Source of the DNA: Sutcliffiella sp. FSL R7-0096
Lineage (GTDB): Bacteria; Bacillota; Bacilli; Bacillales; Bacillaceae_I
Assembly (NCBI RefSeq): GCF_038595065.1
Contig: NZ_CP152003.1
Location: forward strand, 1,406,001-1,470,000
Reading direction: 5' to 3'
Length of the DNA: 64,000 nucleotides
The notes beneath the pieces were generated by a model that worked only from the letters and a program-made list of their open reading frames with translations, made no database searches and was not told the DNA's origin. Made by a program: the position numbers and the translations under genes. Below are positions 2,957-21,488 of the stretch, piece by piece; positions within the stretch are counted from its first letter, which is position 1; every line of letters starts with the position of its first letter.

Positions 2957-2960
2957 GACA

Positions 2961-3875
2961 ATGATGAGTTTACCGCCTGATTATGTTCAAACAATAAAAA
3001 ACATACATAAAGAGAAAGGGGAGGCCTGGCTCAAAAAATTTGACGCATTGATTGACTATTGCGAGAGTAAATGGAAATTCAAGGTTCTCCAACCTTTTGA
3101 ACTCTCCTATAACTTTGTCGCTCCTGCCAAAAAGGAGGATGGTGGACAGGTCGTCTTGAAGCTCTCTGTCCCCAATAAGGAGTTCCATTCTGAAGTAGAA
3201 GCCTTAAGATATTTTGCTGGGGACGGAATGGTCCGAATCAACGACACTGAGGTTGAAAAAGGGATATTGATCTTAGAACGACTGACTCCAGGAGATACGC
3301 TTGCCACTCTCGAAGATGACATAGAAGCAACGGAAATCGCTGCTGCTATCATGGGGTCATTATGGATACGGGAAACACCAGGTTCGGATCTGCCTGAAAT
3401 AGAAGAAAGAGAGCGTAGCCTGTTGAACTTCCACAGGAAACACCCGACAGGAAAAGATCCCATTACACAAGAACTCCTTCAGAAAGCGATACAAACCTTC
3501 CATGGTCTGTTGGAGGAGAAAAAGCAGCGATATATCTTACATGGTGACCTACACCACTACAATATACTAAAGTCGGGATCATCATGGCTAGCCATCGATC
3601 CTAAAGGATTAGTAGGGGAACGGGAATACGATACGATTCAATTTCTTTTAAATAAACTCCCTGAGGAAAACATAGAACCGATTCTCTCGAGGAGAATCGA
3701 TATTTTAGTCGAAAAACTGCAACTTGATGAAAAAAGAATCCTGGCCTGGGGATTTGCGCATGGTGTACTTTCCACTTGCTGGTCGCTTGAGGATGGAGAA
3801 GAATACAATATCCCATTTTATAAGAGCATCTTTATATTTGAGAAATTGCATAAGGAAAGGTATGGATCGTTTTAA
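2961..3875 (+). CDS. APH-type small-molecule kinase (aminoglycoside/hydroxyurea kinase family)
   Basis: A 304-residue protein with the C-terminal kinase motifs of the aminoglycoside phosphotransferase superfamily: a Brenner motif HGDLHHYN with Asp196 and Asn201, and Asp213 in IDPKG for metal binding. The IDPKG form and the overall length fit the aminoglycoside/hydroxyurea 6-kinase branch, where IDPKG replaces the usual DxD. Substrate is unknown; members phosphorylate streptomycin-like or other hydroxyl compounds, and chromosomal Bacillus copies are often uncharacterised. The start is the ATG at 2961, just after GGAGAATAGGAC; a longer frame beginning at 2901 would run through the VOC gene. Translational coupling with the VOC gene is likely. 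Confidence 0.8.
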   Translation: MMSLPPDYVQTIKNIHKEKGEAWLKKFDALIDYCESKWKFKVLQPFELSYNFVAPAKKEDGGQVVLKLSVPNKEFHSEVEALRYFAGDGMVRINDTEVEKGILILERLTPGDTLATLEDDIEATEIAAAIMGSLWIRETPGSDLPEIEERERSLLNFHRKHPTGKDPITQELLQKAIQTFHGLLEEKKQRYILHGDLHHYNILKSGSSWLAIDPKGLVGEREYDTIQFLLNKLPEENIEPILSRRIDILVEKLQLDEKRILAWGFAHGVLSTCWSLEDGEEYNIPFYKSIFIFEKLHKERYGSF

Positions 3876-8500: not shown

Positions 8501-8793
8501 GGGAACGTCTTTTAGTCTACTATTTGCGATGCAGTGAAAAGCTTGCTCAGCTCTTAGTAGCACGAAAAGAATATGACACCGCCATACAGTGGTGCGAGAG
8601 GGTAATTGAAAAGGATCCCACTTGGGAAGAGGCCTATCGCCTGCTGATGTTTTGTTATTATCAAAAGAACAATCGGTCACAAGCAATGAAATGGTTTGCT
8701 AAGTGCAAGCAGTATTTAGAAAGTGAGCTCGGTGTAGAGCCGATGTTTTCTACGAAGCAGATGTACGATATGGTATTAGGAAAAGCAAATTAA
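5575..8793 (+). CDS. Large transcriptional regulator: MalT-like ATPase, TPR, wHTH and BTAD domains
   Basis: A 1072-residue regulator. The N-terminus is a MalT-type signal-transduction ATPase: P-loop GPGYGKST (45-52) and Walker B LILIIDDFHFV (about 133-143). A long helical TPR-like middle follows (about 350-800). The C-terminus starts near residue 823 with a winged-helix DNA-binding domain (LEFFVTKRNKHVVRDEIFSALWP), then a bacterial transcriptional activator domain (BTAD, about 920-1070). The wHTH-BTAD pair is that of SARP activators. It is monocistronic, preceded by AAAGGAGGCGGG and followed by its own terminator, directly upstream of the ABC operon. I infer that it activates that operon and the acyl-CoA ligase gene through the shared TGTAACC repeats. 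The effector is unknown. Confidence 0.88.
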   Translation: MNSQDTILQTKITAPTVKEYVLRRAKIARKLKAVTNFGVTMVHSGPGYGKSTIVASFVPAFDAVTCWYTATELDDELIPFLRYVIHSIRNAKGEFGENLLHFLDRMDRYIREEEVQDFCSLFINEIAKSQNPLILIIDDFHFVQNNTEIIIWFHWLLHHIPNNLHLLLITRQRPDWEMVTAMKVKNELMEITEDDLKFSKDEVEVLLQDVYMLDVSTEDIELIYSLSEGWVMALGLLSQRLVEQTSTDVLFMTQGTLEDLFKYLATEVFMKQTPMVQQFLEQTSILDVLSGEICDEVLGINGSNYMLQSLTERHLFITVNGRDRYRYHALFKEFLERRLKVQEQQYMQLHKRCARWYMKQRDVLPAIAHFEKINDYSAIGALIHEHGVQLLEQGQLSYVLEKLLKVNVHTKDRYYMLWYIQGEILRYRCQYEESEAAYKKGLEADRISGDSLVIIRSLKGIAKIYLDTIQPIKAERVLSEAIKMLETCPIEKTEENQLYAIMAENLLNAGHAGKALEWFEKLDTVYKQEKAGNLEARILLRSGNLQMAKKLLLNKKKGETDGALPQSHRETDLLLSLVEAFIGNGDHAKVLADAGIKQGIKLQAPFVEACGWIRLGHAVQLMEIYDSVLAKDCYQTALEIMEELNVSRGKAEANMGLCILYTYQGAYEKAILCGEEALKETEEVNDNWLSGLIYLAMKIASIQTSKWERVEFYGLRASKLLRKCGDKYAEMLLNLWESIYHYERQEWNGFTNSINSFLNSLQTGNYEFILFNRTTFGPSDLQRFTPLLMEAQNRGIQREYVTSLLNELGFSNVQNHPGYTLKIQALGSFRVWLGQKEVDAKDWQRVKAKELLEFFVTKRNKHVVRDEIFSALWPNVPEKSMIRDFKVALNALNNALEPERKARTEPFFIQREGNSYGLSSNSGYIVDAIEFESFASAGLEEQDPAKAQSFLEKALALYKGDFLPDQKYADWCLNERERLLVYYLRCSEKLAQLLVARKEYDTAIQWCERVIEKDPTWEEAYRLLMFCYYQKNNRSQAMKWFAKCKQYLESELGVEPMFSTKQMYDMVLGKAN

Positions 8794-8826
8794 ACTCCGC
8801 CAGGATGGTGGGGTTTATTTTTTTCT
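8792..8826 (+). terminator. Terminator of the BTAD regulator gene
   Basis: The stem AAACTCCGCCA / TGGTGGGGTTT is followed by a T-rich tail just after the stop codon. Confidence 0.75.
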
Positions 8827-8830
8827 TACT

Positions 8831-8861
8831 TGTAACCCGTTTGTAACCGCTACCATATAAG
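8831..8861 (+). promoter_or_regulatory. Paired TGTAACC direct repeats and -10 of the ABC importer operon
   Basis: TGTAACC occurs at 8831 and again at 8842, exactly 11 bp apart. A -10-like TATAAG follows at 8856-8861. No -35 hexamer is present at the expected place; the repeats occupy it. Heptamer direct repeats with 11-bp period in front of the -10 are characteristic of SARP/BTAD activators. The same arrangement occurs at 19915. Confidence 0.7.
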
Positions 8862-8906
8862 CTGAAGCTACAACTTTATAAATCAATGGGTTGAGGGGGA
8901 AGGTAG

Positions 8907-10130
8907 ATGAAAAAGTGGAAGTCAGGATTTTTGCTTTTATGCATGGTAATGCTCGTTTTGGCCGGATGCAGTGACAGTAATGCTGGGACAGACCCAGACT
9001 CAAGCGGAGATGCTGATAAAAAGGTGATCAAGGTTGGTGTGCTCGCTTCCCTGACTGGAGCGCTTGAAACGTATGGTAAGCAGACGGTGCAAGGATTTGA
9101 ACTTGGTTTAGAGTATGCGACGGAAGGAACCATGGAAGTGAACGGCCACAAAATTGAGTTTGTGGTGGAAGATACGGAAACTAAACCGGAAGTAGCCATT
9201 CAAAAAGCTACAAAGTTATTGGAAGATGACAAAGTGGATTTCTTGGTGGGATCTTCTAGTTCTGGAGATACTTTAGCAGTGCTTCCGCTTGCGGAGGAAT
9301 ATGAGAAAGTGATGCTGGTCGAGCCAGCGGTAGCAGATAGTATTACTGGAGCGGATTGGAACAAGTATATTTTCCGCACAGCACGAAACTCTTCCCAAGA
9401 TGCTGTGGCCGGTGCGGCTGCAATTGCTGGTGAAGGGGTGAAAATAGCAACATTGGCACCAGACTATTCATTTGGGCACGATGGAGTTGCCGCCTTTAAA
9501 GAAGCTGCATTAGACTTGGGGGCAGAAATTGTTTTGGAAGAATACGCAGATCCGGCAGCAACCGATTTCACCTCTAACATTCAGAAAATCCTGGATGCTA
9601 AGCCTGATTATCTGTTTGTAGTATGGGCAGGTGCAAACTCACCATGGAACCAGATTTCTGATATGAAAGTTCAAGAAAGAGGAATAAAAATTTCTACGGG
9701 AGCTCCAGATATTGCAGCACTATACACGATGGAGCAGTTGATTGGAATGGAAGGATTCTCGGTTTACTATCACACACTACCAGACAATCCGGTCAATGAT
9801 TGGCTGGTGGAAAAGCATAAGGAGAAATTTAATGGAGAAGTCCCGGACTTATTTACTCCTGGCGGAATGAGTGCTGCCATAGCAATTGTGGAGGCGCTGA
9901 AGAAAACAGAAGGTGATACGGATACGGACCTAATCATTGAGACTATGGAAGGGATGAGCTTTGATACTCCGAAGGGTCAAATGACGTTCCGTGCTGAAGA
10001 TCATCAGGCGCTCCAAACTTTATATGCTGTGCGTCTGGAGAAAGTGGATGGTTTTGATTATCCGGTTCCTGTGTTGATGAGGGAACTGACTCCTGAGGAA
10101 ACAGCGCCACCAGTTCGAAATAATCAGTAA
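8907..10130 (+). CDS. ABC transporter substrate-binding lipoprotein (Leu/Ile/Val-binding type)
   Basis: A 407-residue lipoprotein: signal sequence MKKWKSGFLLLCMVMLVLAG with lipobox LAGC, then a Gly/Ser/Asp-rich linker. The mature part is a type I periplasmic-binding fold (KVGVLASLTGALETYGKQTV, followed by SSSGDTLAVLPLAEE). This is the receptor of a HAAT-family importer. Many family members bind branched-chain amino acids, others bind amides, aromatic acids or short fatty acids, so the ligand is uncertain. The catabolic genes downstream argue for an organic acid or acyl compound rather than an amino acid. GAGGGGGAAGGTAG supplies the ribosome binding site. First gene of the operon. Confidence 0.88.
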   Translation: MKKWKSGFLLLCMVMLVLAGCSDSNAGTDPDSSGDADKKVIKVGVLASLTGALETYGKQTVQGFELGLEYATEGTMEVNGHKIEFVVEDTETKPEVAIQKATKLLEDDKVDFLVGSSSSGDTLAVLPLAEEYEKVMLVEPAVADSITGADWNKYIFRTARNSSQDAVAGAAAIAGEGVKIATLAPDYSFGHDGVAAFKEAALDLGAEIVLEEYADPAATDFTSNIQKILDAKPDYLFVVWAGANSPWNQISDMKVQERGIKISTGAPDIAALYTMEQLIGMEGFSVYYHTLPDNPVNDWLVEKHKEKFNGEVPDLFTPGGMSAAIAIVEALKKTEGDTDTDLIIETMEGMSFDTPKGQMTFRAEDHQALQTLYAVRLEKVDGFDYPVPVLMRELTPEETAPPVRNNQ

Positions 10131-10210
10131 GAAGTGGAAGGAACTTTGGGGCGCTGCTCTGAGGTTCCTTTGTAGTATGAGAAACCCTTGAAAAAAAGGA
10201 GGCAGTAACT

Positions 10211-10978
10211 TTGATTCCAATTTTAGAAACAAAGGATTTAACGATAAATTTTGGTGGGCATGTGGCAGTGGACCACGTGAATTTTTCGGTCGAACCTTAT
10301 CATTTTAAGTCCATTATCGGCCCAAATGGAGCTGGAAAAACAACCTTTTTTAATTTGTTGAGTGGGCAGTTAAAGCCGACAAAGGGGCAAGTGTTCTGGA
10401 AAGGGGAGGACATTACAAAGCTCCCTCCGATGAAAAGGACAAGAAAAGGAATTGGCCGCTCCTTTCAAATAACAAATGTGTTTCCCAATCTGACCGTGTT
10501 GGAAAATGTTCGCCTGGCTGTTCAATCACAAAGAGGCGTCCGGTATAACATGTTCTCTCACTTCCTTCACTTTAAGGAATTCGAAAAGCGGGCAATGGAA
10601 CTATTGATGACGGTGCTATTGGAGAACAAAGCCCATTCTATCGCAAAGAATCTTGCCCATGGGGAAAAGAGAAAGCTTGAGATTGCGATGCTCCTGGCGC
10701 TGGAAACGGAAATCCTTCTCTTGGATGAGCCGACTGCAGGTATGTCAATAGAAGAGGTTCCTGCAATCTTGGAAGTTATCAAACTGATAAAAGCAAAGGG
10801 GGACCGGACCATCGTCCTGATTGAACACAAAATGGATATGATTTTGGATTTATCTGATTCTGTAACGGTGTTGTTCAACGGTAGACTGTTGGCAGACGGT
10901 ACTCCTCAAGAGATTATGAATAATGAAATGGTACAGTCTGCGTATTTGGGAGGATTATATGATGACGACGCTTCTTAA
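10211..10978 (+). CDS. ABC transporter ATP-binding protein, LivG type
   Basis: A 255-residue ATPase with Walker A GPNGAGKTT (about 37-45), an altered signature LAHGE in place of LSGGQ, and Walker B ILLLDEPTAGMS. The LivG-typical GIGRSFQITNVFPNLTVLENV segment is present. It powers uptake together with the LivF-type subunit. The start is TTG at 10211 behind AAAAAGGAGGCAG. The gene overlaps the next one by 20 bases, indicating translational coupling. Confidence 0.9.
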   Translation: MIPILETKDLTINFGGHVAVDHVNFSVEPYHFKSIIGPNGAGKTTFFNLLSGQLKPTKGQVFWKGEDITKLPPMKRTRKGIGRSFQITNVFPNLTVLENVRLAVQSQRGVRYNMFSHFLHFKEFEKRAMELLMTVLLENKAHSIAKNLAHGEKRKLEIAMLLALETEILLLDEPTAGMSIEEVPAILEVIKLIKAKGDRTIVLIEHKMDMILDLSDSVTVLFNGRLLADGTPQEIMNNEMVQSAYLGGLYDDDAS

Positions 10979-11669
10979 AGTGGAGAGGATCCAGACATAT
11001 ATCGAACAGTTTCATATATTGCAAGGTGTTGACTTTGAAGTAAAACAAGGAGAGGTCACCGTTCTTTTAGGTAGGAACGGGGCGGGTAAGACAACAACTC
11101 TCAGAAGTGTCATGGGATTGAACCCTCCTCAAAAAGGTTCGGTTATTTTTAATGGAGAGGATATTACCGGACTGGCAACCTATGAAATTGCCAATAAAGG
11201 AATAGGTTATGTTCCTGAAGATCAAGGTGTATTCGGGGAACTGACAGTGGAAGAAAATATGAAGGTCGCCATGAGAAAGAATGATGACGCAACACGGGCA
11301 AAATTGGATTGGATTCTCGATCTATTCCCTGATCTTAAGACATATTGGAAAAAACGAGGCGGAAATTTAAGTGGAGGACAAAAGCAGATGCTGGCAATCT
11401 CCCGGGCCTATATAAATAATAGCGAGCTGTTATTAATTGATGAACCAAGTAAGGGGCTTGCTCCAATCATGGTGGAAAAAGTGATGAACTCCATCCAGGA
11501 GATGAAAAAAGAAACGACCATCATCTTGGTGGAGCAAAATTTTTACATGGCTAGTACAATTGGGGATTCCTTTTATATATTGGATGACGGTAGAACTGTA
11601 CATCATGGTCTCATGCATGAACTGAAGGAGGATGAGGAACTAAAGAGAAACTATCTTGGAATTGCATAA
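10959..11669 (+). CDS. ABC transporter ATP-binding protein, LivF type
   Basis: A 236-residue ATPase with Walker A GRNGAGKTT, signature LSGGQKQ and Walker B LLIDEPSKGLAP. This is the shorter LivF-type partner of the preceding LivG-type subunit. The start is ATG at 10959 (a second ATG follows at once), behind GGGAGGATT. A longer frame from 10923 would lack a ribosome binding site and overlap livG further. Confidence 0.9.
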   Translation: MMTTLLKVERIQTYIEQFHILQGVDFEVKQGEVTVLLGRNGAGKTTTLRSVMGLNPPQKGSVIFNGEDITGLATYEIANKGIGYVPEDQGVFGELTVEENMKVAMRKNDDATRAKLDWILDLFPDLKTYWKKRGGNLSGGQKQMLAISRAYINNSELLLIDEPSKGLAPIMVEKVMNSIQEMKKETTIILVEQNFYMASTIGDSFYILDDGRTVHHGLMHELKEDEELKRNYLGIA

Positions 11670-11684
11670 TAGGAGGGGCGATAC

Positions 11685-12545
11685 GTGGAGATATTTGTGA
11701 ATCTTACAGTAAATGGATTGGCAACTGGAATGCTGATATTCTTGCTTGCTGCTGGTCTTACATTGATATTTGGTCTTATGGATGTTCTGAACTTTGCCCA
11801 TGGAGGGCTATTTGCCTGGGGGGCCTTCTCCGGAATATGGGTGTACACGGCAACAGGAAGTTTTATGATTGGAATAATAGCAGCAATAGGTACTGGACTT
11901 ATATTAGGGTTGGCGTTAGAGCGTTTTATCATTCAACCTGTCTATGGAAATCACGTACAGCAAATCCTGATCACGTTAGGGGTCATGCTTGTTTTAAGTG
12001 AGATGATTAAAGTGGTATTCGGCCCTAATCAGCTCAGTGCGAGAACCCCATCTTATTTGAGCGGGAGCTGGGAATTTGGAGATATCATCATCATAAAATA
12101 CCGTGTGTTCATCATTGTAATAGGGGCGCTTGTTTTTGGAGTCATCTTCTATATTTTAAGAAACACAAAAATAGGTCTTATCGTTCGTGCGGGTGTCATT
12201 AATAAGGAGATGGTGCAGGCTCTGGGCATTAATATAAAAAGGGTGTTCATGCTTGTGTTCATGGCGGGAGCGGCAATGGCCGCGCTCGGGGGGATGCTGC
12301 TCGGACCATATTCTGGAGTCATCTACGCGGAGATGGGACTTGAGTTTGGGATATTGGCATTTATCGTGGTGGTAATCGGTGGGATGGGAAGTATAACAGG
12401 TTCGGTCCTTGCAGCCATCCTGGTAGGAATAAGCGGATCATTTATGGCTTACTACGTACCGGACTTAGCGCTGGCAGTCAACATGCTGCTGATGACCATT
12501 GTCTTGATCTTCCGTCCTCAAGGTCTATTTGGAGTAAAGGGGTGA
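11685..12545 (+). CDS. ABC transporter permease, LivH type
   Basis: A 286-residue integral membrane protein rich in hydrophobic helices. It has the LivH hallmarks GLTLIFGLMDVLNFAHGG near the N-terminus and GGMGSITGSVLAAILVG near the C-terminus. It forms half of the membrane channel. The start is GTG at 11685 after AGGAGGGGCGAT. It follows the LivF-type gene by 15 bases. Confidence 0.9.
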   Translation: MEIFVNLTVNGLATGMLIFLLAAGLTLIFGLMDVLNFAHGGLFAWGAFSGIWVYTATGSFMIGIIAAIGTGLILGLALERFIIQPVYGNHVQQILITLGVMLVLSEMIKVVFGPNQLSARTPSYLSGSWEFGDIIIIKYRVFIIVIGALVFGVIFYILRNTKIGLIVRAGVINKEMVQALGINIKRVFMLVFMAGAAMAALGGMLLGPYSGVIYAEMGLEFGILAFIVVVIGGMGSITGSVLAAILVGISGSFMAYYVPDLALAVNMLLMTIVLIFRPQGLFGVKG

Positions 12546-12549
12546 GCGC

Positions 12550-13548
12550 ATGAACAGATATATGACAAAATCCAATACTGTGTATTTCATTATTTTCCTG
12601 ATGCTTCTTGCCCTCCCTTTTGTCACAGACTCGCGAACTCTCTTAATTATGTTCACCCAGATCTTCCTTTTTGCCATTTTTGCAATGAGCTATGATATCC
12701 TGCTTGGTTATACAGGGATCGTTTCTTTTGGGCATGCAATGTTTTTTGGCATCGGTGCCTATTCAACAGGGATCATGCTGAAGCAATATGATAGTACTAT
12801 TCCCATGCTTCTGCTGGCAGTACTGGTAGGTGCCATCATTGCAGGCATTGTGAGTTATATCGTTGGCATGCTTTCCCTCCGATTGAAAAGTCATTTTTAT
12901 GCGATGTTAACACTAGCTTTCTCAGGGCTTTTCTTGGTGTTGGCGGAAAAATGGAGAACGCTCACCTTTGGCAACGATGGATTTACTTTTAGTATACCGG
13001 ACCCTTTAAGAGACAGATTGAATTTATATTTAATTGCTTTAATTCTTATGGTGATGATCTTTCTTTTATTAAGAAGATTTACACATTCCCCAGTAGGGAA
13101 GGTCCTCCAAGCAATAAGGGAAAATGAGGACCGGACAGAATCGCTCGGATATCATGTATTGCATTATAAAGTTATAGCTAGTGTAGTGGCAGGGGTCCTT
13201 GCAAGCTTTGCCGGCAGTCTTTATGTTTTGACTCTAAGATTTGTCAATACCTCCGTCTTTGCAGTGGATGTCACACTTGATGCCTTGTTGATGACCATCA
13301 TTGGAGGTGTAGGCACATTGGTTGGTGCCATTATTGGCGCAGGATTGATAGAGTTTGCACACCACTGGTTGACAGACCTTGCGAAGGTGCATTGGATATT
13401 TGAACGCTGGATCATTTTCTTTGGAATCCTCTATATTGTGGTGGTGATGTTTTTCCCGCAAGGTATTGTAGGTACCGTAAAAATGTGGTGGGTAAGAAAA
13501 AAAGGAGCGCAGATTACTGGGCAAAACGAAAAGGATATTTCGGGGTGA
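12550..13548 (+). CDS. ABC transporter permease, LivM type
   Basis: A 332-residue membrane protein with LivM features: DILLGYTGIVSFGHAMFFGIGAY in the first third and GGVGTLVGAIIGAGLIEF in the last third. It pairs with the LivH-type permease. The ATG is four bases after the upstream stop, with GGGGTGAG as ribosome binding site. The C-terminus is basic and cytoplasmic. Confidence 0.9.
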   Translation: MNRYMTKSNTVYFIIFLMLLALPFVTDSRTLLIMFTQIFLFAIFAMSYDILLGYTGIVSFGHAMFFGIGAYSTGIMLKQYDSTIPMLLLAVLVGAIIAGIVSYIVGMLSLRLKSHFYAMLTLAFSGLFLVLAEKWRTLTFGNDGFTFSIPDPLRDRLNLYLIALILMVMIFLLLRRFTHSPVGKVLQAIRENEDRTESLGYHVLHYKVIASVVAGVLASFAGSLYVLTLRFVNTSVFAVDVTLDALLMTIIGGVGTLVGAIIGAGLIEFAHHWLTDLAKVHWIFERWIIFFGILYIVVVMFFPQGIVGTVKMWWVRKKGAQITGQNEKDISG

Positions 13549-13562
13549 GAGGAGGAGAAGGA

Positions 13563-13739
13563 ATGTTCAGTCAGCCTCAAGTAGCATCCTTTATTGTACG
13601 TTGCACAAGCTTATTGGATGCAGGACAACCGACACCGGTATGGAGAATAACGGTTAGCCATGTGCAAGGGGAAGAGGAAATAACCGTAACTTCCTTTGAA
13701 AAAGTAAGTGAATTTATGAAAGAAAAACTAAGTGGGTGA
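13563..13739 (+). CDS. Small hypothetical protein (58 aa) inside the ABC/KAS III operon
   Basis: The frame starting at the ATG at 13563 is preceded by GAGAGGAGGAGAAGGA, a strong ribosome binding site, and encodes 58 residues. It reads FIVRCTSLLDAGQPTPVW, then RITVSHVQGEEEITVTSF and a C-terminal helix FEKVSEFMKEKL. That suggests a few beta strands plus one helix. I do not recognise the family. It overlaps no gene, sits 15 bases after the LivM-type gene and ends just before the KAS III-like gene, so it is translated as part of the operon. It might be an accessory partner of the adjoining thiolase-fold enzyme, but that is a guess. Confidence 0.7.
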   Translation: MFSQPQVASFIVRCTSLLDAGQPTPVWRITVSHVQGEEEITVTSFEKVSEFMKEKLSG

Positions 13740-13743
13740 GGTC

Positions 13744-14757
13744 ATGACAAACATTGGAATTGTCAGTGTCGGCACATTTATTCCAGAAAATTTCATGACC
13801 AGCAAGGAAATTGCCGAAAAATCTGGAATACCTATAGAGGTGGTGGAAGGAAAACTTGGCATAAAATCCAAGCCTGTCGCCTCTTCTGGGGATCATACTT
13901 GTGAAATGGGTATAAAAGCTGCACTAATAGCCTTGGAAAAGGGGGATGTTGCTCCGGAAGAAATAGACCTGATCATCTATATCGGAGAAGAGCATAAGGA
14001 ATATCCTTTATGGACGGCAGCCCTTTATATGCAAAAACAGCTTGGGGCGGTAAATGCAGTTGGATTTGATATGGCGTTGCGTTGTGGAACCACGATAATG
14101 GGGATGAAGCTGGCAAAGGACATGATGGTAGCGGATGAATCCCTTAGGACCGTCTTGCTTGCAGGTGGTTATCGCAATGAAGATTTTATTGATTATACAA
14201 ACCCTCGCACCCGTTTCATGTATAACCTTGGATCAGGAGGGGGTGCCATCCTGTTAAAAAAGAACTATGGGAAAAATGCGGTATTGTCATCCCATCTTAT
14301 TACGGACGGTTCCTTTTCAGAAGACGTTGTCGTAGTTGCCGGTGGAACGAAATACCCCATTTCAGCAGAAGCTTTGGAATTAAAGAAAAATACGCTGGAT
14401 GTACTGGACCCGGAAGGGATGAAATCAAGACTAGAAGAAAAATCAATGAATAATTTCCTGAAAGTGATAAGAGAGTCATTATCAAAAAGCGGCTTTACCC
14501 AAGAGAATGTAGATTATCTCGGAATTCTTCATATGAAAAAATCTGCCCATGATTATGTCCTTCAGGAACTTGGCTTGACGGAACATCAATCTATCTATCT
14601 AGAAAACTATGGCCACATCGGGCAAATTGATCAGATTCTTTCCTTAGAGCTTGCTTTGCAGCAGGACAGAATTAAAGATGGTGACATCATTGTACTTGTG
14701 AGTGCAGGTATAGGCTATGCGTGGGGAGCAACCACTATTCAATGGGGGAAACCTTAA
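13744..14757 (+). CDS. KAS III (FabH)-like thiolase-fold enzyme with altered active site
   Basis: A 337-residue member of the beta-ketoacyl-ACP synthase III / HMG-CoA synthase superfamily. The nucleophile is Cys114 in ALRCGTTIMG. The first His is His263 (ILHMKKSAHD). Where FabH has Asn in GNTSAA, this protein has His291 in YGHIGQIDQ, so the Cys-His-Asn triad is not conserved. Glycine-rich LGSGGGAILL and GIGYAWGATTI match the fold. PqsC is a known relative that also lacks the Asn. The gene probably acts on an acyl-CoA, perhaps in condensation or acyl transfer; housekeeping FabH activity is unlikely. Start at 13744 follows GGGTGAG; the 13732 GTG lacks a ribosome binding site. Confidence 0.82.
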   Translation: MTNIGIVSVGTFIPENFMTSKEIAEKSGIPIEVVEGKLGIKSKPVASSGDHTCEMGIKAALIALEKGDVAPEEIDLIIYIGEEHKEYPLWTAALYMQKQLGAVNAVGFDMALRCGTTIMGMKLAKDMMVADESLRTVLLAGGYRNEDFIDYTNPRTRFMYNLGSGGGAILLKKNYGKNAVLSSHLITDGSFSEDVVVVAGGTKYPISAEALELKKNTLDVLDPEGMKSRLEEKSMNNFLKVIRESLSKSGFTQENVDYLGILHMKKSAHDYVLQELGLTEHQSIYLENYGHIGQIDQILSLELALQQDRIKDGDIIVLVSAGIGYAWGATTIQWGKP

Positions 14758-14771
14758 AGGAGGTTTAAATA

Positions 14772-15680
14772 ATGATCGTACAAAAGAAAGTGAAACTGCC
14801 GAATGGGGAGACGTACGGCTATAGGGAACGGGAAGGTGCCGGGGAAACCATAGTCCTCATCCATGGGAATATGACTTCTTCCAAGCATTGGGACCTCCTG
14901 ATGGAAAACATAGATTCTTCTTTTCACCTTGTCGCAGTGGACATGAGGGGGTTCGGTGAATCCACTTATAACGAGAAAATATATTCCATCAAGGACTTGG
15001 CAACTGACATTAAACTGTTCGTGAACGAGTTGGCGCTTTCTGGCTTTACGATTGCAGGTTGGTCGACTGGTGGGGCTGTGGCTATGCAGTTCATTTCCGA
15101 TCATCCAGGATATGCGGAAAAGCTTATTTTGCTTGCTTCCGCATCCACAAGAGGATATCCGATGTTCGAGACCGGTGAAAGCGGACAACCGGATTTTGAT
15201 AAAAGATTATCAAGCTATGACCAGGTATTGGAAGACAAGACAAGGACCATCACCATTTCCAAGGCTTATGAATCACGGAATAAGGATGTACTTAGAATGA
15301 TTTGGGACTATGCCATTTACCATGATAATAAACCGGAAGCTGCCCGTTATGAGGCATATCTGGAGGATATGTTGACACAACGTAACTATCCAGAAATATT
15401 GCATGCACTTAATACATTCAATATCAGTACCCAGCATAACGGCTTGAAAGAAGGTACTGGTGAAGCGAAAAATATCAATATCCCTGTACTCGTTTTGGCA
15501 GGAGAAAAAGACCTTGTCATTTCAGAACAGATGGCAAACGAAATAGTGGAGGATCTTGGTGAAGTGGCGAAGCTTGTTACATTGAAAGGGTGCGGACACT
15601 CTGCACAAGTAGACGATCTGCCACAACTATTGCAAGCGATTACATCATTCGTATCGAAACAGGAGGAACAGTACAAATGA
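14772..15680 (+). CDS. Alpha/beta hydrolase
   Basis: A 302-residue alpha/beta hydrolase. The oxyanion motif is HGN (31-33), the nucleophile Ser98 sits in GWSTGG, and Asp247 (GEKDLV) and His276 (GCGHSAQ) complete the triad. No signal peptide is present, so it acts in the cytoplasm on an ester, thioester or C-C bond of the imported compound. AAAGGAGG precedes the ATG. The stop overlaps the ATG of the SDR gene, so the two are translated together. Confidence 0.87.
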   Translation: MIVQKKVKLPNGETYGYREREGAGETIVLIHGNMTSSKHWDLLMENIDSSFHLVAVDMRGFGESTYNEKIYSIKDLATDIKLFVNELALSGFTIAGWSTGGAVAMQFISDHPGYAEKLILLASASTRGYPMFETGESGQPDFDKRLSSYDQVLEDKTRTITISKAYESRNKDVLRMIWDYAIYHDNKPEAARYEAYLEDMLTQRNYPEILHALNTFNISTQHNGLKEGTGEAKNINIPVLVLAGEKDLVISEQMANEIVEDLGEVAKLVTLKGCGHSAQVDDLPQLLQAITSFVSKQEEQYK

Positions 15681-16414
15681 GATTAGAAGGGAAAATTGCT
15701 ATCATTACCGGTGCGGCTAATGGACTTGGTTTTGAAGCTGCACGACTATTTCTAAAAGAGGGGGCAAAGGTGGCCCTTGTGGATTATGACGCAACCACAG
15801 GGGAACAAAGGGCGGCGGAACTTCAAACGGAAGGGGAGACGGCATTCTATCAAGTGGATGTAGCCAATCAGGAAAAGGTTGTGGAGATGGTCTCCATGGT
15901 AAAAGAAAGATTTGGCAAGATTGATATATTAATTAACAATGCAGGCATTACAAAAGATAATATGCTTTTGAAAATGAGCGGAGAAGACTTCCAAAAGGTA
16001 ATGGATGTCAATGTCAACGGCGTCTTTAATTGTACACAGGCAGTGGTCCCACATATGTTGGAAAATGGAAAAGGGAAAATTATCAACACTTCTTCTGTGA
16101 GCGGTGTTTATGGTAATGTCGGTCAGACGAATTACGCGGCATCCAAAGCAGCAGTGGTGGGAATGACAAAGTCGTGGGCAAAGGAATTTGGCAGGAAAAA
16201 TATTAATGTCAATGCCGTAGCCCCGGGCTTTGTGGATACAAATATGGTAGCCACTGTACCGGAGAAGGTGATACAAGGGTTGCTGCAGGTCATACCCCTG
16301 CAGAGGCTTGGTACGCCGGGTGATATTGCGAATGCGTATCTGTATCTTGCATCAGATGAGTCGGATTATGTGAATGGAACGGTGTTGCATGTGGATGGCG
16401 GCATCATGATGTAA
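15677..16414 (+). CDS. SDR-family dehydrogenase (FabG-like, probably NAD-dependent)
   Basis: A 245-residue classical short-chain dehydrogenase. The cofactor motif is TGAANGLG (11-18), with NNAG further on; the catalytic residues are Ser140, Tyr153 and Lys157 (YAASK). Asp36 at the end of the second strand (VALVDYD) normally selects NAD over NADP, which favours an oxidising, catabolic role over fatty-acid synthesis. The true start is the ATG at 15677, overlapping the hydrolase stop (ATGA); the frame open to 15590 lies inside the hydrolase gene. Last gene of the operon, followed by two hairpins. Confidence 0.88.
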   Translation: MRLEGKIAIITGAANGLGFEAARLFLKEGAKVALVDYDATTGEQRAAELQTEGETAFYQVDVANQEKVVEMVSMVKERFGKIDILINNAGITKDNMLLKMSGEDFQKVMDVNVNGVFNCTQAVVPHMLENGKGKIINTSSVSGVYGNVGQTNYAASKAAVVGMTKSWAKEFGRKNINVNAVAPGFVDTNMVATVPEKVIQGLLQVIPLQRLGTPGDIANAYLYLASDESDYVNGTVLHVDGGIMM

Positions 16415-16427
16415 AACCTTAAAACCC

Positions 16428-16468
16428 TCTACAGACTAGGTACTGATATGGTAACTAGTCAGCTTGTA
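16428..16468 (+). terminator. Hairpin 1 after the SDR gene
   Basis: The sequence CTACAGACTAGGTAC pairs with GTAACTAGTCAGCTTGTAG as an imperfect stem. There is no T tract, so it is at best a weak terminator or an RNA-stabilising structure. Its core GACTAGGTAC is repeated in the hairpin at 16601. Confidence 0.45.
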
Positions 16469-16519
16469 GATAAAGTTAATTAATTTTCAAAGATGTACAA
16501 ATAACCATGTTGATCGTAG

Positions 16520-16556
16520 TGAAAGGCCCGCAGAAAGCGAAGCGCCTGTAACGGAG
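16520..16556 (-). repeat. Fragment of the GC-rich dispersed repeat
   Basis: On the reverse strand this stretch reads CCGTTACAGGCGCTTCGCTT followed by TCTGCGGGCC. It matches the left end of the repeat at 51645. It looks like a remnant of that family; the rest of the 16415-16777 gap apart from two hairpins holds nothing I recognise. Confidence 0.6.
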
Positions 16557-16600
16557 ATTAACCGCCATATGCAATTCTAAATATATCTAGGGAACAGTTG

Positions 16601-16632
16601 AGACTAGGTACCGAAATGGTACCTAGTCTTTT
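16601..16632 (+). terminator. Terminator of the ABC/KAS III operon
   Basis: A perfect 12-bp stem, AGACTAGGTACC / GGTACCTAGTCT, with a five-base loop and a TTTT tail. It lies about 190 bases past the last stop codon. Confidence 0.8.
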
Positions 16633-16777
16633 AGTATATACTTTTAAAAGTTTTGACGAAAAAAGTAACGAACCACTTCAAAGCATATTCATTCTTGCCA
16701 AGACTCACACCCACGCCGTATGATGAACTCAGGATAAATAGTCAAATTTGAATAATTGAGTATAGGAGGACATCCAG

Positions 16778-19700
16778 GTGTTTAATGCACTCATTAAAAA
16801 GCCAAAGGTTACATTAATTTTTCTATTATTATTGGTGGTCATCGGTTCCTTGACCTATTTTCAAATACCAAAACGGGAGATCCCAGAAATCTCACTGAAT
16901 GTCGGGACGATCACAACCGTCTATCCTGGAGCTGCACCGAACGTGGTTGAACGGGACATCACCACTCCGCTTGAAAAGGAATTATTGGATATGGATGGAA
17001 TAGACACCGTTACTTCCGTTTCAGGATTAGGGATTTCCAATATCGTAATGGAACTCACAGATGATGCCGACAGGGATAAAGTCTTCTCCCTAGTACAGCA
17101 AAAAGTATCCGATGTGAGCCGCGAATTCCCGGAAGACGCATTCGAGCCAACAGTAAATTCGGATATTCAAATGGGAGCCATTGCCTCCTATCATGTGCTT
17201 CACGAAAATCGTGAGTTTCTATTAGAACAAAAAGATGTAATTGATAATTGGATACCTCAATTAGAAAAGATTAATGGAGTTCGTAAAGTCACTGTCAAGG
17301 GGCTGGAAGAGTCCAGCTACACACTTAATCTTGATTCAGAAAGCATGCGAGAGGAAAGAGTACTGCTTCCGGATGTCATAACAGCCATCCAGAACGAACT
17401 CGAAATCACTCCACTTGGCAGTCAGCAAGAAGGAAATCGAATTAACCAACTCGCTTTTGGACATATTGAAAATATCGAAGACGTGGAAAACGTCTTTCTG
17501 AAAAAGGATGAAGAAGGAAACTCTCTTTATGTAGGGGATATCGCAAATTTGATGCAAATCCCTACAGAACAGGAAGATTTCATTTTGTATAATGGAACTT
17601 CTGCCATTTCTTTGACGATCATGCAGGAAAAAGGAGTGGACATCCCAACACTTCATTCCAAAGTGGATGCTGAGATGGAGCGGTTGTCCAAAGACCTGCC
17701 AGAAGAAGTGGAGATGGATCTCTACTATACTCAAAACGATATTGTGTCCAAGATTTTCAAGGACTTGGGAATTTCATTCTTGATCTCTATTTTAGCCGTG
17801 GTATTGATTACGTTCTTTGGACTAAATGCCGTTTCTGCGATCCTCGTGGCAATCTCCATTCCAATCTCGATTGCGCTTGGATTGATTCCGCTACCGTATG
17901 TGAATGTGGATTTAAACCAGATCTCCATCATTGGAATCATCATAGCGCTAGGGATTCTGGTGGATGATGCCATTGTTGTAAATGATAATATCCAAAGACA
18001 TTATCAGCTTGGCGATGGTCCGCTTGAAGGTGCCATGACCGGAACGAAAGAAGTTAGAGTATCGATCATTACCTCCACCTTGGCCATTGTCTTTACCTTC
18101 TTGCCATTGACATTCCTTGGTGGTCCAAACGGTGCTTTTATTTCCGCACTCCCTACGGTATTGATTGCGACGATCATCGGCTCCACCATTGTCGCTTTGA
18201 CCATTGTGCCGATTTTCATGGCATGGCGTCAAAAGAAAAAGAAACGCAAAAAAACAAAAGACGGCCTGCTTTGGTCACAATTTGATAAAGTAAGTAACTG
18301 GTATAGTTCGAAAGTTTTAACAAAAGTTGTGAAAAAGCCTTTGCTCACAGGGCTTGCTGTTCTTACATTCTGTACTGCGAGTTACGCTCTGGTTCCATTC
18401 ATTCCGGTCGTATTCTTCCCGAGTGCAGATCGAGAAGAGGTAACCGTGTCCGTCACCTACCCTGCAGGGACACCACTAGAGGAAACAGAATCAAGGCTTC
18501 AAGAGATGGAAGAGAGCATTACAACAGATGAAGCAGTATACGAAACCACGATCTTTGCAGGAAGCGGGGAACCTGGGATATTCGGTAGCACATTATCCAA
18601 TTCAGGTGAAAACACGGGACAGATTGTCATAAGGGTCGACCGTGAACAGCAGTCTGCTGCAGATACGATTGCCGAATGGCAGCCAAAGCTACGTGACGAA
18701 AATCCAGATGCAGTGGTGATGCTTTCCACTATTGAAGCCGGACCTCCTGTTGGAGCTCCTATCGCACTGACGGTAGTTGGGGAAGATATAGAAGAACTGA
18801 TGGACTCCGTCAATGGAATGAAACAAGAGATCGAAAGCTTGGAAGGAAGCGGCGCAGTCATTGATGATGTAGGTTCGCCGCAGCCTACCATCAACTATGT
18901 TCCGAATAGGGATGCTATGGAGGAGCATGGCATCACCTCCCAGGAAATAAGCAATCAAATAAGGCTTGTTACAGAAGGAATCCCAGTCGGTTCATATGAA
19001 GCAGGGCTGGAGAGAGAAACACTGACCATCGTCCAAGACCTTGTAGAGGATGGAGAAACAATAGACCTTGAAGCATTGGAGCTTCCAAGTAAAACAGAAA
19101 CGACCGAATTTGGAGCACCGGTTCTCATCTCACTATCAGAGCTGGTTTCTCTTGAAGAAACAGAAGTGTTGCCATTGATTCCTCATAAGGATGGGGACAG
19201 AACCATAACGGTTCGTGTGTATCCTGGGGAAGATGACAAACAGAAATTAGAAGCAGAGGTGAAAGAGATAGCAGCATCCTATGAAACAGATAATATTTCG
19301 GTTTCGGTGGGAGGAGAATCTTCTGCAAGAAGTGACTTCTTTATTGAAGTAGGAAAACTGTTCTTGATCGTTATTTTCCTGATTTATATCTTAATGGTTG
19401 TTCAGTTCAATTCATTAAGACTGCCATTGTTAATCATGAGTTCCGTGTACTTGGCCATTTCAGGGGCGATGATAGGCTTGTTCATCACACAAACCGGTCT
19501 CGGATTCATGGCGATGATGGGGATCGTATCACTTGCGGGAATAGTGGTAAGGAATGCTACGGTTTTCATTGAATTCATGGAATCCCGCCTGCAAGAGGGT
19601 GCAACTCTTAGCGAAGCGGTCATTGATTCAGGTAAAGCCAGGTTGCGACCGGTCGTACTGACGGCGTTTACATCTATTGCCGCTTTACTTCCGATAGCGT

Positions 19701-19834
19701 TCAGCGGGGATGTCTTATTTACCCCACTTGCGATTTCAATTATTTCAGGGATTTTCTTCTCGACATTCTTTACGTTGTTGTTTGTACCAGCGTTTTATAT
19801 TGTGATTAAGAGGAAAAAAGTGAAAGAAGTCTAA
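16778..19834 (+). CDS. RND-family efflux transporter (AcrB/SwrC-like)
   Basis: A 1018-residue RND permease. It has the twelve-helix plan with two large extracytoplasmic loops: first helix at about 11-28, a loop containing YPGAAPNVVERDITTPLEKEL, and helix 4 with GIIIALGILVDDAIVVNDNI, where the Asp pair is the proton relay. The second half repeats this (GIVSLAGIVVRNATVFIEF, with NA in place of DD as is usual). It exports lipophilic compounds or surfactants by proton antiport. No HlyD-type adaptor gene is adjacent. The start is GTG at 16778 after AGGAGGACAT. It is shorter than B. subtilis SwrC (about 1065) and is likely a paralogue. Confidence 0.88.
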   Translation: MFNALIKKPKVTLIFLLLLVVIGSLTYFQIPKREIPEISLNVGTITTVYPGAAPNVVERDITTPLEKELLDMDGIDTVTSVSGLGISNIVMELTDDADRDKVFSLVQQKVSDVSREFPEDAFEPTVNSDIQMGAIASYHVLHENREFLLEQKDVIDNWIPQLEKINGVRKVTVKGLEESSYTLNLDSESMREERVLLPDVITAIQNELEITPLGSQQEGNRINQLAFGHIENIEDVENVFLKKDEEGNSLYVGDIANLMQIPTEQEDFILYNGTSAISLTIMQEKGVDIPTLHSKVDAEMERLSKDLPEEVEMDLYYTQNDIVSKIFKDLGISFLISILAVVLITFFGLNAVSAILVAISIPISIALGLIPLPYVNVDLNQISIIGIIIALGILVDDAIVVNDNIQRHYQLGDGPLEGAMTGTKEVRVSIITSTLAIVFTFLPLTFLGGPNGAFISALPTVLIATIIGSTIVALTIVPIFMAWRQKKKKRKKTKDGLLWSQFDKVSNWYSSKVLTKVVKKPLLTGLAVLTFCTASYALVPFIPVVFFPSADREEVTVSVTYPAGTPLEETESRLQEMEESITTDEAVYETTIFAGSGEPGIFGSTLSNSGENTGQIVIRVDREQQSAADTIAEWQPKLRDENPDAVVMLSTIEAGPPVGAPIALTVVGEDIEELMDSVNGMKQEIESLEGSGAVIDDVGSPQPTINYVPNRDAMEEHGITSQEISNQIRLVTEGIPVGSYEAGLERETLTIVQDLVEDGETIDLEALELPSKTETTEFGAPVLISLSELVSLEETEVLPLIPHKDGDRTITVRVYPGEDDKQKLEAEVKEIAASYETDNISVSVGGESSARSDFFIEVGKLFLIVIFLIYILMVVQFNSLRLPLLIMSSVYLAISGAMIGLFITQTGLGFMAMMGIVSLAGIVVRNATVFIEFMESRLQEGATLSEAVIDSGKARLRPVVLTAFTSIAALLPIAFSGDVLFTPLAISIISGIFFSTFFTLLFVPAFYIVIKRKKVKEV

Positions 19835-19842
19835 GCCTTGTG

Positions 19843-19880
19843 AACGGGCACCATCAAGTTGATGGTGCCCGTTTCTTTTG
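19843..19880 (+). terminator. Terminator of the RND transporter gene
   Basis: A perfect stem, AACGGGCACCATCAA / TTGATGGTGCCCGTT, followed by TCTTTTG. Confidence 0.88.
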
Positions 19881-19914
19881 ATGGTATCCAACTACCGAGA
19901 TATACATCCTCCTC

Positions 19915-19947
19915 TGTAACCCTTCTGTAACTCCGATCTCCTATAGT
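19915..19947 (+). promoter_or_regulatory. Paired TGTAACC/T direct repeats and -10 of the acyl-CoA ligase gene
   Basis: TGTAACC at 19915 and TGTAACT at 19926 are exactly 11 bp apart. TATAGT at 19942-19947 is the likely -10. No -35 hexamer is visible. The layout duplicates the site at 8831 in front of the ABC operon, so both promoters are probably controlled by the BTAD regulator. Confidence 0.7.
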
Positions 19948-19982
19948 ATTAATATCATGTAAGGTGTAGGGGAGAGATGGAA

Positions 19983-21488
19983 GTGGAAATGAATGGTTCT
20001 TGGTTACAGAAGCGTTCACAACATTCTCCACATAAGATCGCGGTTATAGACGGCGAAACGGGAGAAAGATGGAATTATAAGCAATTATATGACCGATCAA
20101 GAGTCATGGCAGGAAGACTTCTTTCTGCCGGTATTGGAATAGGAGATCGAGTGGCTTTATTGTCTCCAAACCATATAGTGTACTTTGATATGCTTTTTGC
20201 ATGTAGTGAAATTGGAGCAATCTTTGTTCCGCTCAACTGGAGAATGGCGGAAAAGGAATGGAACTATATAGTAAGAGATTGCAAGGCTAAATGTGTGGTA
20301 GTACATGATGAATATTTGGAAGAATCAAAGCAACTGGAATGTCAAGTGTTCTCCCTGGAGGAATTGGCAACGAAAGAAATACAATGGAATAGTCCACCCG
20401 CAACACGTTCCAATGACCCAGCAGCCATCATCTATACGGGGGGCACAACAGGACTACCAAAAGGCGTTATCCTTACTTATGAGAACATCACATTCAATGC
20501 TATCAATACAATCGTAAGCTGGGGATTGCATGGAGGGGATATCACCCTTACTTGCCTGCCTATGTTTCATACGGGTGGCCTGAATGCCTTGTCTACTCCA
20601 ATACTCATGGCAGGTGGAACCGTTGTATTGATGAAGAATTTTGACGCGGAAAAAGCCATGAATCTATTGAATTTGTATCGATGTACCATTACGTTAATGG
20701 TACCTACGATGTATGGCATGTTGATAGAACATCCTCAGTTTCAAAGCACTGACTTCCCGACAATGAGAACATTCCTTTCAGGAGGGGCACCTTGTCCACT
20801 AGAAATATACGAAGCATTCTACAAGAAGGGAAAATTGTTCAAAGAAGGATACGGTTTAACAGAAGCGGGTCCGAACAACTTTTATATTGATCCTAATGAA
20901 GCATATGGTAAAAAAGGTTCAGTAGGTAAAGCGATGTTATTCAATGAAGTGAAATTAATGATAAATGATAGTCTGGAAGCCGCTGAAGGGGAGGTTGGGG
21001 AAATCTATATTAGAGGCTCCCATGTCTTCTCGGAATATTGGGGAAAAGAAGAGGAAACCAAGAAAGCTAAATGCGAAGAGTGGCTGAGGACAGGTGATTT
21101 GGGGCGCAGGGATGAAGACGGTTATTTTTATATAGTAGGCAGGACAAAGGATATGATCATCTCAGGTGGGGAGAATATCTACCCTTTGGAAGTGGAGCAG
21201 ACTCTCTGTCAGCATGAAGCGGTCAAAGAGGCATGTGTAATAGGTGTACCACATCCTGTGTGGGGAGAAGCGGTCATTGCCATCGTTTCTAACAAGAAGC
21301 AGACATCTGAAAAGGAACTTCTGACCTTCTGCAAGAGGAGAATCGGAATTTATAAAATACCTAAGAAAATAATCTTTGTACCGGAATTACCAAAGACGGC
21401 AGTAGGAAAATTGGATAAAAAGGAACTACAGGATTCTTTCAGAGGGCTTTTCACCCAGAAGGAAAATAAAGAAGAACATATCAAATAG
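19983..21488 (+). CDS. AMP-dependent acyl-CoA synthetase/ligase
   Basis: A roughly 500-residue adenylate-forming enzyme of the acyl-CoA ligase type. The core motifs are present: IIYTGGTTGLPKGV (P-loop), GYGLTEAGP, WLRTGDLGRRDEDGYFYIVGR and the C-terminal catalytic lysine in GKLDKKEL. It activates a carboxylic acid to its CoA thioester; the substrate is not evident. In-frame starts are ATG 19977, GTG 19983 and ATG 19989. The GGGGAG at 19969-19974 is too close to 19977 and best spaced for 19983. Its promoter repeats match those of the ABC importer operon, so it probably activates the acid that operon imports. Confidence 0.85.
   Translation: MEMNGSWLQKRSQHSPHKIAVIDGETGERWNYKQLYDRSRVMAGRLLSAGIGIGDRVALLSPNHIVYFDMLFACSEIGAIFVPLNWRMAEKEWNYIVRDCKAKCVVVHDEYLEESKQLECQVFSLEELATKEIQWNSPPATRSNDPAAIIYTGGTTGLPKGVILTYENITFNAINTIVSWGLHGGDITLTCLPMFHTGGLNALSTPILMAGGTVVLMKNFDAEKAMNLLNLYRCTITLMVPTMYGMLIEHPQFQSTDFPTMRTFLSGGAPCPLEIYEAFYKKGKLFKEGYGLTEAGPNNFYIDPNEAYGKKGSVGKAMLFNEVKLMINDSLEAAEGEVGEIYIRGSHVFSEYWGKEEETKKAKCEEWLRTGDLGRRDEDGYFYIVGRTKDMIISGGENIYPLEVEQTLCQHEAVKEACVIGVPHPVWGEAVIAIVSNKKQTSEKELLTFCKRRIGIYKIPKKIIFVPELPKTAVGKLDKKELQDSFRGLFTQKENKEEHIK

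Follow-up and report, generated by a model that had tools for sequence, protein, structure and literature searches.

Paired heptamers as probable SARP-type operators of a polyhydroxyalkanoate-utilisation regulon in Bacilli

What do two promoters have in common that lie about 11 kb apart in one gene cluster, share the same pair of heptamers, and follow a gene for a large ATPase regulator of unusual domain order? The question is raised by a stretch of 64,000 nucleotides from Sutcliffiella sp. FSL R7-0096 (contig NZ_CP152003.1, positions 1,406,001 to 1,470,000, forward strand; hereafter the window). One promoter precedes an operon for an ATP-binding cassette (ABC) importer, headed by the gene of its solute-binding protein (SBP), and for an enzyme resembling ketoacyl synthase III (KAS III), an intracellular depolymerase and a short-chain dehydrogenase/reductase (SDR); the other precedes an acyl-coenzyme A (CoA) ligase gene (LIG). 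An earlier note, made from the letters of the window, had proposed that the repeats are operators of the type bound by Streptomyces antibiotic regulatory proteins (SARPs) and are served by the adjacent regulator, which carries a winged helix-turn-helix (wHTH) and a BTAD domain. Following up this proposal by genome comparison and structure prediction, we conclude that the repeats are very probably operators of a regulon for the use of polyhydroxyalkanoate (PHA), most likely activated in the manner of SARPs by the adjacent STAND-ATPase regulator.

Results

Two repeat sites in promoter position

The two sites and the promoter elements predicted beside them are as follows.

8831..8848 (+): putative operator 1, heptamers at 8831-8837 and 8842-8848
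8858..8863 (+): predicted -10 element TAAGCT, pattern TAnnnT, 9 bp past operator 1
19915..19932 (+): putative operator 2, heptamers at 19915-19921 and 19926-19932
19942..19947 (+): predicted -10 element TATAGT, pattern TAnnnT, 9 bp past operator 2

When the sequence was read again, the heptamers TGTAACC/TGTAACC and TGTAACC/TGTAACT were found at these positions with the reported spacing of 11 bp. Site 1 reads TGTAACC-CGTT-TGTAACC-GCTACCATA-TAAGCT from 8831 and site 2 reads TGTAACC-CTTC-TGTAACT-CCGATCTCC-TATAGT from 19915, which in a common register gives TGTAACY-N4-TGTAACY-N9-TAnnnT. The distance of 7-9 bp to the -10 element given in the earlier note is therefore 9 bp at both sites; 7 bp applies to site 1 alone, and only if TATAAG is taken as its -10 element. 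A simple scan detected no sigma-70 -35/-10 pair in either operator region, in agreement with the idea that the repeats take the place of the -35 element, and the positions of the sites bear out that they lie about 11 kb apart, ahead of the ABC/KAS III operon and of the ligase gene.

As a count, the sites are unremarkable. The exact core TGTAAC-N5-TGTAAC occurs twice in the 4.9-Mb genome, both matches being operators 1 and 2, with 0.94 expected from base composition; a reversed control pattern also has two matches, and allowing up to one mismatch gives no enrichment in this genome (19 matches versus 32 for the control). In 11.1 kb of one strand, by comparison, 0.001 exact cores are expected, and the occurrence of both sites within one cluster, at matching promoter positions, exceeds chance by far. 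Since the number of sites in a single genome is near chance, which is what an accidental origin of the repeats would give, the case for an operator rests on position and conservation.

Conservation at orthologous loci

The regulator was found in 51 of 150 genomes, comprising that of the window and its relatives, and the neighbourhoods of these genes were fetched. To them we added 40 further regions with a regulator homologue, 38 of which come from other orders of the class; a homologue was present in 59 genomes outside the order, and regions were taken from 36 of these. Genomes and loci are cited below by handles (G and L numbers). Seventy-two loci with an SBP of more than 42% identity were searched from 450 bases upstream to 30 bases into the gene, among them G149, in which the regulator gene is on a separate contig. 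The repeat precedes the SBP gene in 72 of 72 loci, 66 times exactly, five times with one mismatch and once with two, and the regulators of these loci reach down to 31% identity. All variants are T to C exchanges at position 3, and the motif accordingly becomes TG(T/C)AACY-N4-TG(T/C)AACY. The earlier note had named absence of the repeats from orthologous promoters as grounds for giving up its reading; the opposite was observed.

No exact match arose in 3550 dinucleotide shuffles of the sequences ahead of SBP, and the control upstream regions (LivF, LivH, LivM, ABH, REG and SigPep) have a mismatch mode of 4. Exceptions among the controls are three exact matches in 73 LivG regions (G308, G288 and G226), one row with two mismatches each for LivH and LivM, both without TAnnnT at 9 bp, and matches with at most two mismatches in 5 of 68 KAS III regions and 6 of 63 SDR rows (one locus counted twice). 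As TAnnnT stands at 9 bp in all five KAS III near-matches and in those of SDR except in G017, both groups may be further sites. The KAS III near-matches belong to clusters from other orders (G289, G269, G213, G162 and G249; L200, L201, L202, L203 and L205) and alter the first base, giving GGTAAC, AGTAAC or CGTAAC; in three of these clusters (G289, G269 and G249) the SDR gene has a near-match as well.

Counting up to two mismatches, 51 of 67 regions upstream of the ligase gene contain a separate site. The 16 regions with three or more mismatches, in which the ligase mostly follows an SDR or hydrolase gene directly, were excluded from the collection of 136 sites (127 distinct) upstream of SBP, LIG and depolymerase genes, as were the KAS III and SDR near-matches. 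In 113 of 123 SBP and LIG sites TAnnnT starts 9 bp past the second heptamer. The conserved columns over the 136 sites are those of both heptamers (1.04-2.0 bit per column) and of TAnnnT, while the spacers and the 9 bp before the -10 element reach at most 0.61 bit per column. The site also stays with the operon where operon and regulator gene are divergently arranged (G080 and G141). In five genomes (G044, L138; G086, L144; G117, L141; G145, L140; G016, L139) tandem operators about 50-123 bp apart precede the SBP gene, as if there were two promoters.

Autoregulation was looked for in the sequences ahead of 44 regulator genes and rejected, the best matches having 3-5 mismatches. For KAS III relatives in genomes without the regulator (G021 and G048; 50-53% identical), the sequence retrieved around the gene contains no exact match. 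At L144 (G086) and L143 (G141) the regulator orthologue is in two pieces, owing to a stop codon or gap, and an exact operator precedes the SBP gene.

Co-occurrence of site and regulator

The composite pattern TGYAACY-N4-TGYAACY-N9-TANNNT was scanned over the 150 genomes. It is present in 48 of the 51 regulator-positive and in none of the 99 regulator-negative genomes (Fisher p 4e-36, with the relatedness of the genomes ignored), and a reversed control pattern has four matches in all 150. The three regulator-positive misses (G069, G077 and G089) contain the heptamers, with CATAAT or TATAAA in the -10 place. Of 98 composite matches in total, 88 are in the regulator cluster, 47 before SBP, 40 before LIG and one before SDR; in G104 one match is 974 bp upstream of SBP and separated from it by a further gene. 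The remaining ten, in nine genomes, are unlinked to the cluster and are all at genes for esterases of the polyhydroxybutyrate (PHB)-depolymerase type. Thus, the scan that the earlier note had recommended confines the site to genomes with the regulator, and the scatter over many unrelated genes that would have spoken against an operator is not seen, since 98 of 98 matches precede SBP, LIG, SDR or depolymerase genes. This restriction to sampled genomes encoding a relative of the regulator suggests an activation mechanism like that of SARPs.

The motif also brings to mind WalR (YycF), the essential response regulator of the OmpR family in Bacillota, a candidate absent from the earlier note. If WalR bound the sites, the MalT/BTAD protein would have another role. 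The core TGTAAC-N5-TGTAAC fits the WalR consensus TGTWAH-N5-TGTWAH with the same geometry as published (PMC4168254), and both halves conform to TGTWAH in 110 of the 136 sites; the other 26 break it, with 25 TGCAAC, 2 TGAAAC and 2 AGTAAC among the 272 half-sites. Positions 4 and 6, variable for WalR according to that consensus, are invariant in all 272. This invariance is partly selected, as the site collection was begun from TGTAAC, though few variants can have been missed when every SBP region has a site. At base 7, 267 of 272 half-sites have T or C and none has A, while high-affinity VicR sites are described as having A there (PMC4168254); the latter base does occur in the second half in three SDR regions outside the 136 sites (G289, G269 and G249; 1-2 mismatches). 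Moreover, WalRK is said to occur in all Firmicutes (PMC9210968), so that WalR is expected in all 150 genomes, yet the composite site is missing from every regulator-negative one, and the targets found are metabolic genes. We therefore regard WalR as a very unlikely binder.

Unlinked sites at genes for PHA depolymerases of extracellular type

None of the ten unlinked sites went into the building of the motif; they stand as independent predictions. They begin 31-227 bases upstream of the earliest possible start codon, except in G011, where the site lies just inside the longest frame. Pfam was applied to seven of the ten depolymerases and NCBIfam to four: Esterase_PHB was found in all seven, and the model for extracellular short-chain-length (scl) PHA depolymerases (NF050058) was passed by all four. 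The three unscanned proteins (G013, G011 and G112) each share 64-88% identity with one of those scanned.

Relatives of these enzymes are encoded in 20 of the 150 genomes, 13 regulator-positive and 7 regulator-negative. In the regulator-positive genomes, 13 of 14 copies follow a site that has no more than one mismatch and a -10 element at 9 bp (the exception is G069), as opposed to 0 of 10 copies in the regulator-negative genomes, where there are 3-5 mismatches. Three of the 27 depolymerase rows, being the second piece of a gene already represented, do not enter these counts. At E 1e-40, the genome of the window itself lacks an extracellular-type depolymerase.

These data decide the matter of accident. 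That the repeats are chance occurrences, or simple promoter sequence kept by recent common descent, would agree with the two exact matches in the window's genome, close to the number expected from base composition. It does not account for heptamers that are conserved in many families, down to the lowest regulator identity, while the spacers and the 9-bp gap are not, nor for the independent recurrence at unlinked depolymerase genes. With the site ahead of all 72 SBP genes, its co-occurrence with the regulator over 150 genomes and no exact match in shuffled sequence, we rejected a chance origin, the probability of which is negligible.

A SARP-type domain at the C terminus of a MalT-like ATPase

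The protein encoded directly upstream of the first repeat has the following parts.

5575..8793 (+): regulator gene, 1072 amino acids; MalT-type STAND NTPase, tetratricopeptide repeats (TPR) and C-terminal SARP-type wHTH-BTAD, by profile and structure matches
5596..6894 (+): MalT-like nucleotide-binding part, residues 8-440, by MalT model and structure 8bob
8020..8790 (+): C-terminal SARP-type domain, residues 816-1072, by AlphaFold2 model and Foldseek

The BTAD that the earlier note had read from the sequence is recovered by profile (PF03704, residues 926-1068, 87.7 bits), together with TPR matches, and the C terminus models as a SARP domain. The AlphaFold2 model of residues 816-1072 (257 amino acids) has a predicted local distance difference test score (pLDDT) of 93.6, and its top Foldseek matches are AfsR (8k60/8hvr; best E 3.6e-11, TM 0.77-0.80) and EmbR (2ff4/2fez). 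The ATPase half of the claim stands as well: the MalT model aligns with residues 8-440 (E 7e-65, under the full-length cut-off of that model) and the MalT structure 8bob with residues 8-405 (E 3e-28). By eye, a P-loop-like GPGYGKST is present that does not conform to a strict Walker A pattern, and a Walker-B-like ILIIDD is found at residue 134. A search of an anti-phage library with the regulator gave no match. A second BTAD-containing protein of the window's genome is a frame of 374 amino acids (51.9 bits; G000:C1:3510382-3510738, L021).

Compared with SARPs, model, Foldseek and PF03704 agree on an OmpR-type wHTH followed by a BTA domain, which is situated at residues 816-1072 of 1072 instead of at the N terminus. 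Because of this C-terminal position we speak of a SARP-type domain, not of a canonical SARP. The SARP architecture and repeat period invoked by the earlier note hence hold as regards the fold and the 11-bp period, which is as published, and do not hold as regards domain order. Likewise, the protein belongs with the MalT family by its STAND NTPase part only, and wHTH-BTAD stands where a LuxR-type HTH would be.

Comparison with known operators and regulators

In the published SARP rule the direct repeats are 11 or 22 bp apart, and 8 bp separate the 3' repeat from the -10 element; in the AfsR complex described in the same source, sigma region 4 rests on the SARP instead of on a -35 element (PMC10936776). 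The 11-bp period is found at both sites and at the orthologous loci, and the 3' repeat is 9 bp, 1 bp off the rule, from a predicted -10 element, the simple scan having detected no sigma-70 -35/-10 pair. By analogy, the sites probably work like SARP operators.

The closest parallel is AfsR of Streptomyces coelicolor, a large SARP of the order SARP-NOD-TPR, which resembles the regulator in combining a SARP fold with a STAND NTPase and TPR in one chain. Two AfsR protomers are reported to sit side by side on the afs box in afsS at -40 to -19, and inhibition by the NOD/TPR part to be relieved by ATP binding (PMC10936776). Like the afs box, the 11-bp direct repeats here occupy the place of the -35 element, at about -39 to -18 if TAnnnT is taken as -12 to -7. 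The two proteins differ in that the SARP domain is N-terminal in AfsR and C-terminal in this regulator, with about 20% identity, and in that the actinomycete protein has afsS and antibiotic targets whereas the present one is from Bacillota and adjoins catabolic PHA genes.

The operators of PimR and of SARP-LAL regulators share with our sites at least two heptamers with 4-bp spacers, and binding is stated to require two of them (PMC5930380). Their heptamers are of the CGGCAAG type, the domain order of the regulators, as described, is the reverse, and the main operator of PimR is reported to have three heptamers and no -35 overlap (PMC5930380). WalR/VicR and PhoB-type response regulators, in their published descriptions, likewise pair an OmpR-type wHTH with 11-bp direct repeats and half-sites rich in TGT and A, but no receiver domain is seen in the regulator, the half-site is TG(T/C)AACY, and its presence follows the BTAD regulator.

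MalT of E. coli is alike in its N-terminal STAND NTPase and catabolic regulon, and control by an inducer is plausible here too. MalT carries a C-terminal LuxR-type HTH, unlike the wHTH-BTAD of this regulator, and its operators differ from those here.

Among the papers listed in the literature searches, which covered few subscription journals and the top entries of the longer lists, we found neither a SARP operator in a Firmicute nor a PHA regulator of this kind.

Distant homologues and the identity of the binder

Twenty chosen, non-random genomes from outside the order were scanned with a composite pattern that allowed C, G or T at base 7, and three matches were obtained. One (G418) precedes an SBP gene whose product is 46% identical to that of the window (E 3e-121), in a genome with a regulator homologue of 28% identity.

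Several observations weigh against the adjacent regulator as the binder. The other two distant matches, in G204 and G341, are TGCAAC pairs that lie just past the SDR gene and before another gene; the clusters are of the PHA type, and a TGCAAC pair stands before the ligase as well. In 17 of the 20 distant genomes there is a regulator homologue without a composite site, either because it binds different DNA or because the motif has drifted, and the recognition helix of the examined paralogues is much like that of operon-linked regulators. The wHTH is weakly recognised by sequence (PF00486, 16.8 bits against a cut-off of 26.2). The regulator is present in 45 of 47 genomes having the KAS III gene, and since regulator and operon are almost always inherited together, co-occurrence of operon and site cannot by itself name the binder. 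Finally, the depolymerases of regulator-negative genomes are more diverged, and the site comparison at these genes therefore breaks the linkage of regulator and operon only in part.

In the comparison of recognition helices, the 18 rows counted as lacking an operon include G045, G149b and G226, in which an operon is linked to the gene or the sequence is truncated at the end of a contig. A paralogue with a nearly identical recognition helix is found in genomes of f68/g106, for example G446, G272 and G397, that have neither a PHA operon next to it nor a composite site anywhere. At 15 regulator-homologue loci without an adjoining PHA operon, a search for some other exact repeat of 11-bp period followed by TAnnnT at 9 bp gave one match, which lies inside a coding region and is unconvincing.

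Taken together, these points lend some credit to another regulator, encoded elsewhere, that binds the repeats, the adjacent gene being a co-inherited neighbour which controls, for example, another part of the pathway; linkage is no proof of binding, and the site-less distant homologues fit this alternative. It has to be set against the domain type of the adjacent protein, known from the published SARP work to recognise direct repeats of 11-bp period similarly placed relative to the -10 element, against a regulator gene that adjoins the operon even when divergent from it, and against the presence of the site at unlinked depolymerase genes according to whether the regulator is encoded. We consider a different binder unlikely and favour the adjacent regulator.

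Operon and neighbouring genes

The genes and hairpins around the two operators are listed below.

8791..8817 (+): terminator-like hairpin after the regulator gene, 12-pair stem and T run
8907..10130 (+): ABC importer SBP, PF13458, 223 bits
10211-10978 and 10923-11669 (+): ABC importer ATPases, by profile
11685-12545 and 12550-13548 (+): ABC importer permeases, by profile
13732..14757 (+): KAS III-like enzyme of the PRK06840 family, NF005308, 512.8 bits, cut-off 315
14772..15680 (+): intracellular scl-PHA depolymerase (alpha/beta hydrolase), NF050089, 432.3 bits, cut-off 300
15590..16414 (+): SDR, FabG-like, NF004198, 300.1 bits, cut-off 296, match from residue 30
16778..19834 (+): resistance-nodulation-division (RND) exporter, AcrB-type, between SDR and ligase, PF00873, 556.7 bits
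19842..19874 (+): terminator-like hairpin ahead of operator 2, 15-pair stem
19977..21488 (+): acyl-CoA ligase, PF00501, 280.9 bits

The order of the importer genes is kept in most orthologous loci. The SDR, whose real start is probably near 15677, is a possible 3-hydroxybutyrate dehydrogenase. The RND exporter of the window recurs in some relatives, and no counterpart turned up in many orthologous clusters; in the Sutcliffiella-like G015, which lacks it, the ligase keeps its own operator. In seven genomes (G064, G056, G095, G171, G493, G213 and G162) a second pair of ligase and KAS III, 36-43% identical, lies between the regulator gene and the importer operon. Further upstream, window positions 2901-3872 encode a kinase of the APH(6)/hydroxyurea-resistance family (PF04655, 142.7 bits), which also occurs in the fetched relative G014; most fetched regions are too short to tell.

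Discussion

The pathway, which the earlier note had not named, is most simply read as PHA use. The intracellular (NF050089) and extracellular (NF050058) enzymes match the scl-PHA depolymerase systems of Bacillus relatives, and a candidate PHA depolymerase has been described in a marine Bacillus and its relatives B. aquimaris, B. marisflavi and B. vietnamensis (PMC7830162). The ABC importer would take up oligomers or monomers of PHA, the intracellular depolymerase may act on oligomers, the KAS III-like enzyme may cleave or form acetoacetyl-CoA, and the CoA ligase presumably serves the same pathway. A PHA-synthase-like match above 200 bits is missing in 25 of the 51 regulator-positive genomes, which favours external rather than stored PHA as the substrate without being conclusive.

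On this basis we propose that the MalT-like NTPase/TPR part would sense a breakdown product of PHA, for instance 3-hydroxybutyrate, its oligomers or a CoA derivative, and would thereby free the C-terminal SARP domain. Two such domains could then lie side by side on both TG(T/C)AACY heptamers, stand in for the -35 element and, as in AfsR, recruit RNA polymerase via sigma region 4. The targets would be the operon of importer, KAS III, PHA depolymerase and SDR, the CoA ligase gene and, where present, the gene of the extracellular PHA depolymerase. It appears likely that this constitutes a PHA regulon throughout the class Bacilli, switched on by a STAND ATPase that senses a PHA breakdown product and acts through a SARP-type adaptation to sigma.

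If this model is correct, a SARP-type operator and its activator exist outside the actinomycetes, with reversed domain order, and bioplastic degradation has a dedicated control circuit. The SARP activation geometry, so far described mainly in antibiotic-making actinomycetes, would be extended to a catabolic regulon of Bacilli. The importer and the KAS III-like gene, whose nearest family names refer to the transport of urea or branched-chain amino acids and to fatty acid synthesis, acquire a probable function in PHA use, and the composite site offers a sequence tag with which PHA depolymerase genes can be found by genome scan. The sensing of an external polyester would thus become directly testable with one protein, two or three promoters and a few candidate inducers.

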